Of a stretch of 64,000 nt of DNA, positions 51,220 through 52,430 are shown one piece after another. The position numbers and the translations under genes were made by a program. The notes under the pieces are model-generated. The model worked only from the letters and a program-made list of their open reading frames with translations, searched no databases and was not told the origin of the DNA. The DNA is from Synechococcus sp. 1G10 (GTDB lineage Bacteria > Cyanobacteriota > Cyanobacteriia > PCC-6307 > Cyanobiaceae): the NCBI RefSeq assembly GCF_002252625.1, contig NZ_NQKW01000009.1, positions 62,001-126,000 of the forward strand. The letters are read 5' to 3'. Position 1 is the first letter of the stretch. Each line of letters starts with the position of its first letter.

Positions 51220-51641
51220 CTGTGGGCCAACTTATCTAAGGAGCCTCTGGAAAATAGAGCCCAATCGCGGGACAATGACCACGTGATCTTTCGCTAGGAC
51301 TGGGTTAATGGGCGGCAAGCAGCTCGGTTTCGGTGATTACCAGTAGACCACTGCCAAGAAACGCACCAAACGCGAGATGTTCCTCGCCGATATGGACCAA
51401 GTGGTGCCCGGCAGGCACTGATCTAACCGATCTACCCCTACTACCCCAGGACCAGCAAGAAAGGCGGTCGTCCGCCTTAGCCGCTGGCCACGATGCTGCG
51501 GATCTACCTGCTGCAGCAGTGGTTCACGCTTTCAGATCCCTTGATGGAGGAGATGCTGATCGATACGCCCTGATTCCGCCGCTTCGCCGGAATCGAGACG
51601 ATGGATGGGAGGATCCCTGATGAGACCACGATCCTCAACCA

Positions 51642-51664
51642 CTCCTGCGGAGAAGGCTTCGCCT
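51642..51664 (+). repeat. Double-hairpin mini-repeat, class 1 copy A
   Basis: CTCC-TGC-GGAG, one A, then AGGC-TTC-GCCT: two adjacent 4-bp hairpins with 3-base loops. It interrupts the transposase frame between ETTILN and HLLEEHR, where IS5 proteins normally have only a few residues, and adds 24 bases in frame. Confidence 0.8.
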
Positions 51665-51801
51665 ACCAGCATCTGCTGGAAGAGCACCGGATCGCGGAGC
51701 AGATCCTTGAGGGTGTGAACCAGATGCTGAGCGAGAGGGGAGTGATGCTGAGGGAAGGAACGATCCTTGATGCCACGATCATCAATGCCCCCAGCTCCAC
51801 C

Positions 51802-51837
51802 CTTACCGAGGCCGCAGGCCGAGCGTGGCGGAGCCAC
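51802..51837 (+). repeat. Double-hairpin mini-repeat, class 2 copy B
   Basis: CTTACCGA, then GGCC-GCA-GGCC, GAGC, then GTGGC-GGA-GCCAC: two adjacent triloop hairpins in 36 bases. It falls between the IS5 motifs NAPSST and NKRKERDPEM, which are normally almost contiguous. Confidence 0.85.
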
Positions 51838-51902
51838 TAGAACAAGCGGAAGGAGAGGGATCCTGAAATGCACTCGGTGGCCAAGGGCAAGCAGTGGTTC
51901 CA

Positions 51903-51925
51903 CTGCTTCGCAGAAGGCTTCGCCT
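51903..51925 (+). repeat. Double-hairpin mini-repeat, class 1 copy C
   Basis: CTGC-TTC-GCAG, one A, then AGGC-TTC-GCCT. It matches copy A except for one loop base and a compensated C-G to G-C pair in the first stem. It falls between GKQWF and RCHIGVD of the transposase. Confidence 0.8.
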
Positions 51926-52313
51926 ATGGGCTGCGCTGCCACATCGGCGTTGATGCCGCATCTGGCCTGGTCCACTCTGTTGAGAGCACCGCCGCCAACG
52001 TTCATGAGCTGAACACAGCAGCTGAGCGGCTCCATGGGGATGAACGCCTCATCAATGGGGATGCCGGCCACATCGGCAACCGCTGCGCGGAAGCCGTTGG
52101 CAACGAGAAACGAAACGACTTCCAGAACTGCGAGGCTGAGTTCAGGATTGCCATGAAGCCCGGCCAGCGCAGAGTGCTTCCAGGGACACCAGAGGGCAGG
52201 CTTCTGGATCTGATTGAGACGGCGAAAGCCCACTTCCGCGCCAAAGTGGAGCATCCCTTTCGGATCATCAAATGCCAGTTTGGCTTCCGGTAGGTCTTCT
52301 ACAGAGGCATCCG

Positions 52314-52349
52314 CTTACCGAGCCCGCAGGGCGAGCGTGGCGGAGCCAC
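52314..52349 (+). repeat. Double-hairpin mini-repeat, class 2 copy D
   Basis: CTTACCGA, then GCCC-GCA-GGGC, GAGC, then GTGGC-GGA-GCCAC. It is identical to copy B over 36 bases except for two positions that form one base pair (G-C in B, C-G in D). It lies near the 3' end of the transposase, before NDLKLKLLFALANLW-like sequence. Confidence 0.85.
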
Positions 52350-52430
52350 CAGAACGACCTCAAACTGAAGTTGCTCTTTGCCCTGGCAAACCTTTGGATG
52401 GTGAGGAAACGAATACCTGATCCACCGTAG

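Follow-up and report, generated by a model that had tools for sequence, protein, structure and literature searches.

Two 36-mers in a decayed IS5-family transposase gene of Synechococcus sp. 1G10 belong to a dispersed family of double-hairpin inserts

Small palindromic elements and the double-hairpin repeats

Small dispersed repeats (SDR), sequences of 21-27 nt, were reportedly described by Elhai et al. in 2008 in Nostoc punctiforme and its relatives, which are filamentous cyanobacteria, and RNA-mediated insertion is said to have been proposed for them. Here we analyzed a window of 64,000 nucleotides from Synechococcus sp. 1G10 (contig NZ_NQKW01000009.1, positions 62,001 to 126,000), in which two 36-mers proved to be copies of a dispersed family of double-hairpin inserts and not ancestral transposase sequence. 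The SDR of Nostoc are similar in being cyanobacterial, tiny, thought to be mobile, subject to compensatory stem changes and present inside other mobile elements; a shared structure with compensatory changes was also found in the present family, as a general feature only. The elements reported here differ in measuring 34-37 nt across the family, in having two adjacent hairpins, in occurring in picocyanobacteria and in lying mostly within coding genes.

Mitochondrial GC clusters, or double-hairpin elements, are likewise short mobile units built of two adjacent hairpins. Those of fungi are described as being about 40 nt long, GC-rich and palindromic with AG at the target, as lying mostly between genes with AG or ACT direct repeats on their flanks, and as occurring sporadically at homologous sites, for which exchange by recombination and co-conversion was proposed (PMC4478555). 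Our element shares the size, the GC-richness, the palindromes, the two hairpins, the sporadic presence, the AG at the target and a proposed exchange by recombination, a likeness at the level of description, whereas the GC clusters are mitochondrial, mostly intergenic and bounded by direct repeats, and the element has AG on its right side only.

REP/REPIN sequences, which go with RAYT, are small non-autonomous palindromic repeats according to two accounts (PMC3116915, PMC3733652), and the element is small, non-autonomous and palindromic as well. The REP end tag GTAG (or CGTC) was absent; most rows of our alignment end in CACTAG, so the reverse strand begins with CTAGTG. Nor were the copies extragenic and numerous, being mostly intragenic and numbering 1-8 per genome in 35 genomes. 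Rickettsia palindromic elements are described as lying in frame in the ORFs of likely functional proteins (PMC3733652); type A of our element also lies in ORFs but causes a frameshift or introduces a stop, and a second kind of insert in the window, class 1, is more like the Rickettsia elements than type A is. Yeast mitochondrial translational-bypass inserts are short and intragenic and disrupt the reading frame (PMC5009743). Our element breaks the frame too, but the signs that its hosts are functional were mixed and gave no clear indication. No published description of this double-hairpin family was found at the title and abstract level of the literature search, most subscription papers being outside its reach. 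For mobile DNA, the elements are of very small size; their target is short and recurrent, filled and empty sites form clean pairs, and the stems covary. The family offers a bacterial counterpart of the mitochondrial GC clusters, and the movement of gene-less hairpin repeats, an old question, becomes testable in culturable cyanobacteria.

The two repeats, their host gene and their family

The segments 51802-51837 and 52314-52349 are the same at 34 of 36 positions. The mismatches, at positions 10 and 18 of the 36-mer (51811 G against 52323 C, and 51819 C against 52331 G), are facing bases that form one swapped G-C/C-G pair: the first stem reads GGCC-GCA-GGCC in copy 1 and GCCC-GCA-GGGC in copy 2, and the second, GTGGC-GGA-GCCAC, is the same in both. 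The original prediction, made from the letters of the window, had given the identity, the compensated pair and the unchanged second stem exactly to the base. It had also placed the segments in a decayed IS5-family transposase gene carrying two class 1 inserts, and this proved correct (Table 1). Similarity between the copies reaches 42 nt at 93%, and since the runner-up to the 36-mer inside the window was 23/36 and the best match in 20 order-1 random windows 24/36, the match is beyond chance. A genome-wide count, which the prediction had proposed, was run on the own genome, which is 3.34 Mb long and 99.9% complete. With up to 3 mismatches allowed, it returned only the two window copies, and the reversed-pattern control gave 0. 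In addition, covariance models found a subtype B copy on another contig, with an E-value of 0.0028 under model R1, built without that copy, and 9.4e-12 under model R2, built with it.

Table 1. Positions of the elements, their parts and their host gene in the window
Feature	Position	Strand	Remark
IS5-family transposase gene remnant	51240..52430 (limits approximate)	+	5 stops in 298 aligned codons
Class 1 insert, first copy (different family, D2)	51639..51665	+	
Element copy 1, type A: CT + TACCGAGGCCGCAGGCCGAGCGTGGCGGAGCCACT	51802..51838	+	Replaces A of AAG; net +36 nt; in-frame TAG created
Stem-loop 1 of copy 1 (GGCC-GCA-GGCC)	51810..51820	+	
Stem-loop 2 of copy 1 (GTGGC-GGA-GCCAC)	51825..51837	+	
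AG from target, 3' junction of copy 1	51839..51840	+	Junction comparison
Class 1 insert, second copy	51900..51926	+	
Element copy 2, type A, stem 1 GCCC-GCA-GGGC: T + TACCGAGCCCGCAGGGCGAGCGTGGCGGAGCCACC	52315..52350	+	Net +35 nt; frame shifted
AG from target, 3' junction of copy 2	52351..52352	+	Junction comparison

The host remnant contains a DDE_Tnp_1 match at 51868-52293. Its contig also carries an intact paralogue (locus L025), whose 387-aa open frame matches the NCBIfam IS5 family model at 317 bits against a cut-off of 140. No Rfam family matched the window between 51200 and 52700 at E<=1. The junction of copy 1 was read from homologous IS5 genes (...acc AAG aac..., rows L004 and L062), the copy's own row being mis-anchored; at the site of copy 2, element-free counterparts read ggcatccgCAAGaacgac in L091 and ggtatccgCAAGaacgac in L026. 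That the 36-mers are part of the ancestral transposase, or its internal duplication, has next to no probability: one gene does hold both copies, but intact IS5 genes lack the element (L025 in the own genome and L148 in a relative) and the element also occurs in unrelated genes. Ancestral transposase sequence is ruled out by these element-free homologues, in agreement with the prediction that the segments had been inserted. As for the class 1 inserts, they add a net 8 codons in frame (e.g., HRFAEVFAY against F) and also stand at two sites of the otherwise intact frame of L025 (1045-1068 and 1582-1605); they therefore seem to be tolerated within an open gene.

Three forms of the element were distinguished. 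The type A core is TACC-GA-GGCC-GCA-GGCC-GA-GC-GTGGC-GGA-GCCAC-TAG; type B has one base fewer on each side of stem 1 (TACC-TGGCC-GCA-GGCCA-GC-...); and in the third form, TCGACC-AAC-GGTCGA, the GA/GA foot of type A is turned into Watson-Crick pairs. With up to 3 mismatches, copies of the pattern were present in 13 of 201 family genomes and those of the reversed control in none. With a covariance model of 17 copies, matches at E<=1e-4 were obtained in 33 of 400 genomes of the family and, at E<=0.01, in 7 of 9 genomes of the genus. At E<=0.001, a second model of 47 copies matched 100 places; the 35 genomes concerned had been picked beforehand as positive or borderline. A search with the exact degenerate pattern in one genome per species (84,980 species) found 31 DNA stretches, 30 of them titled cyanobacterial (Cyanobium, Synechococcus, Vulcanococcus and unnamed bins) and one from a Rhodobacterales bin. 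Among the named records with copies are Synechococcus sp. WH 5701, Synechococcus sp. Cruz-7E5 and Cyanobium sp. Morenito 9A2. Neither the exact pattern searched against viral contigs nor one type A query against phage and plasmid carriers gave a match. The Rhodobacterales contig (L066, JAPLPF010000117.1), binned from Lake Pavin, bears both element types; horizontal transfer and misbinning are both possible, the latter because Lake Pavin also yielded a positive cyanobacterial bin. At another locus (L116, 801-853), the copy carries a partial tandem duplication of its second hairpin region (net +48), as though copies were able to grow.

The pairing constraint expected among family copies was observed. 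The covariation score of the 47-copy alignment was 0.158 against a shuffle mean of 0.049, with none of 500 shuffles as high and slid-partner controls at 0.007-0.040. Four pairs changed on both sides (23 cells, which are not independent events because the copies are related). In stem 1, the most frequent compensated change is the very swap that distinguishes the two window copies (GC 39, CG 5, GU 2, AU 1), and the compensated pair of stem 2 was GC in 31, CG in 14 and other in 2 copies; an alignment of 108 matches agrees with this picture, but it was fitted to the model. These results showed that both hairpins are maintained across the family by compensatory change. The two foot pairs of stem 1 were standard in 3 and non-standard in 34 of the 37 rows with letters there. 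Folding of type A was no better than that of shuffles (z -0.59 as DNA and -0.15 as RNA), the values being -1.81 and -1.51 for type B and -3.30 and -2.77 for the third form, respectively, the RNA of which takes another fold.

Insertion junctions and host genes

Copies for the junction and cluster analyses were taken from the loci of the genome searches and from named records of the exact-pattern search. An element-free homologue was present for 47 of 100 unique copies among the loci compared, and in 40 of the 47 the net gain was 33, 35 or 36 nt; these homologues are diverged and therefore only stand in for the true pre-insertion sequence. The modal net insert was 35 nt in 20 and 36 nt in 11 copies with the 37-nt core, and 33 nt in 8 copies with the 35-nt core. 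The other eight comprised L001 and L012 (42 nt, an anchoring artefact against L052 caused by a repeated ACC), L116 (48 nt, owing to its internal partial duplication), L119 (32), L131 (37), L132 (34), L035 (34) and L041 (35, its element having lost one base). The typical change runs from ...C-AAG... to ...C-(C)YTACC...CACT-AG... with the loss of one A, and the modal triplet without the element was AAG in 25 of 47, AAA in 8, AGG in 5, AAC in 5 and other or none in 4. The right junction is regular at AG, and the left varies by one base. Of the two features that would mark a MITE mobilized by a DDE enzyme, neither was seen: the filled/empty comparisons revealed one lost base instead of a target-site duplication, and by eye the two ends, YTACC and CCACT(AG), lack the complementarity of terminal inverted repeats, both hairpins being internal.

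The cleanest filled/empty pair comes from a single genome bin, in which the flanks of L042 (filled) and L070 (empty) are identical at 79/79 and 244/251 positions, 323/330 together. At least one insertion is thus shown to be recent. In the element-free IS5 gene L148, CCAAG occurs five times in sense and once in antisense, and four of the five sense occurrences are used sites; in the second IS5 gene examined, L025, a used site lies at one of three.

By their flanks, 96 of the 100 copies were grouped into 36 clusters; four weak model matches (L136, L139, L140 and L141) were left out, and a few copies of similar weakness, L137 and L138 among them, stayed in. By our own assignment, made partly by eye, 67 of the 96 lie in transposase or integrase genes: IS5 38, IS1182-like 10, IS3-like 6, IS630-like 4, ISAs1-like 2, IstB 1 and integron-type integrase 6. 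Of the other 29, HNH-HIT genes hold 13 and DUF3427 genes 8; 5 lie in a RelE-like gene or beside a deletion adjoining it, and 3 are unassigned, one of which (L058) has a Sulfate_transp match far from the element. By reading, 93 of the 96 copies are in or beside named genes. Family matches back the host classes at IstB L015, DUF772 L005 and L009, DDE_3 L092, DUF3427 L045, HNH plus HIT L111 and HIT L125, and a phage integrase match was obtained for 3 of 32 proteins; the remaining loci were classed by cluster membership or by eye, and the IS3- and IS1182-like matches fall below NCBIfam cut-offs. The ISAs1-like (2 copies) and RelE-like (5) hosts were presumed to be such from sequence likeness without a family match. 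The original idea of a decayed transposase as a permissive target fits the majority in transposase and integrase genes. Its other suggestion, that such elements travel with IS5, was upheld in part: an IS with element remains occurs at two places of one bin, but 29 of 96 copies are outside transposase and integrase genes or unassigned.

When 58 matches were compared with an IS5 protein, 32 fell inside an IS5 match, all in sense orientation, 2 lay beside IS5 on the other strand and 24 had none near. Outside IS5 the element is present in both orientations. Type B occupies one position of HNH-HIT genes in 13 copies from several genomes (loci L036, L039, L103, L104, L105, L109, L110, L111, L117, L125, L133 and L138), mostly open in the sense frame, with the usual TAG changed to TAC, GAC or TAA and with several copies per contig in some genomes. 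Type B is also present in integron-type integrases, where it lies in antisense orientation within or close to the conserved RHSFATHLL region (L046, L068, L095, L122, L127 and L130, the assignment of L122, L127 and L130 being by similarity or by eye).

If the element were silent in expression, through ribosome bypass or removal from RNA, its host genes could stay functional. Several filled IS5 genes indeed have no stop outside the element (L070 0/322 and L073 0/323 aligned codons), and some filled pairs show low dN/dS, namely L070-L073 0.14 and L014-L073 0.08 among five filled pairs other than those of the clade of the window (range 0.08-0.37); the net insert size ignores the reading frame. Against this, the window copy has 5 stops outside the element and several other filled genes have 1-4, dN/dS is 0.23-0.45 among filled copies of the clade of the window and 0.26-0.37 in the three remaining filled pairs, as against 0.09 and 0.12 in two element-free pairs, low values fit recent insertion as well, and antisense insertions exist. 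We regard a silent insert as very improbable; judged from these alignments, disruption at various times followed by decay appears to fit better.

Probable mobilization and spread among IS5 copies

The 36-mers are probably a non-autonomous mobile element of 34-37 nt, dependent on its fold and moved in trans, whose spread is aided by IS transposition and perhaps recombination. Such an element would move in single-stranded, folded form, either as DNA or as RNA, and an enzyme acting in trans would read the hairpins and a short target and place it. Tolerance of insertions may explain why it persists chiefly in transposases and other accessory genes, and later spread might occur through transposition of the host IS and perhaps through recombination of element-bearing with element-free IS copies. 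Several observations count against this explanation: no moving enzyme was found when Y1 and RVT_1 were sought, copy number is low, type A folds no better than shuffles, the foot pairs are mostly non-standard, and only one of the three CCAAG of L025 is used. In addition, the tie between variants and sites counts against untargeted insertion at C-AAG, since such insertion does not predict it.

The original prediction had proposed looking for a RAYT or other Y1 transposase and for target-site duplications, and neither turned up: the own genome gave 0 matches to Y1/RAYT (PF01797), and no duplication was seen at the junctions compared. A REP/REPIN-type element moved by RAYT or another Y1 (HUH) transposase of the IS200/IS605 group would account for the hairpins, the lack of target duplication, the fixed short end motif CTAG and the strand-specific insertion, and Y1 is somewhat commoner in element-bearing genomes (6/33 against 27/367 others, Fisher p 0.043, the two 400-genome draws being taken as the same set). 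Yet 27 of the 33 element-bearing genomes, like the own genome, are without Y1_Tnp, the motif is CTAG instead of GTAG, and the copies are few and mostly intragenic, so that we think this origin unlikely. An insert whose transcript is reverse transcribed into the target is judged equally improbable. The regular right junction at AG, with a left junction that varies by a base as with an imprecise 5' end, speaks for it, but RVT_1 was not found in the own genome and is present in only 9 of 33 element-bearing genomes, and the left variation, being largely tied to the site, may be inherited.

How the element reached so many IS5 copies can be approached through four IS5 sites, at which element identity exceeded flank identity in 129 of 133 pairs (62/66, 28/28, 36/36 and 3/3). 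In 20 of the 133, elements were at least 97% identical and flanks 66-82%; high element identity is partly ascertainment, because the copies were found by element likeness. In a tree of 35 IS5 copies, filled ones are scattered among empty ones, which are under-sampled because loci were mostly drawn for holding elements, and particular element variants tend to occupy particular IS5 sites. Recurrent entry, perhaps with recombination between IS copies, fits these data better than inheritance alone.

Spread could instead be due mainly to homologous recombination, a homing-like co-conversion of empty IS copies by filled ones after very few original insertions at each site. A single site may hold the same variant and junction form across IS5 lineages with diverged flanks, and identity within 6 codons of the element was raised for same-variant over filled-empty pairs at site E (0.89 in 12 pairs against 0.72 in 158) and site R (0.73 in 4 pairs against 0.60 in 121). 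At sites A (0.62 against 0.60) and I (0.81 against 0.78), however, there was no clear rise, the pairs are few, and entry into about eight gene families is left unexplained; we hold this account to be possible, at well under even chances. A bolder view, which we find rather unlikely, is that of a homing-like minimal transposon parasite, a gene-less 35-nt fold that would enter diverged IS5 transposases again and again at the same few bases, from genome to genome and with variants tied to sites, through fold-guided targeting or short co-conversion.

Some loci bear traces of exchange or loss around the elements. At an upstream site, both L042 and L070 retain the last 10 nt of an element, complete in L070 and cut off in L042; because they share these remains and their surroundings differ past the right IS end, the element-bearing IS was itself copied. 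L129 (801-840) seems, from its flanks, to be the product of recombination between two elements in one gene, the left flank resembling IS5 site E by eye, without a BLAST match, and the right flank being site R. Finally, compared with L051 (6327-6960), L118 (801-840) and L066 (6974-7013) lack some 415 nt, as far as the left edge of the type A element, a deletion next to the element that includes the type B element of L051.
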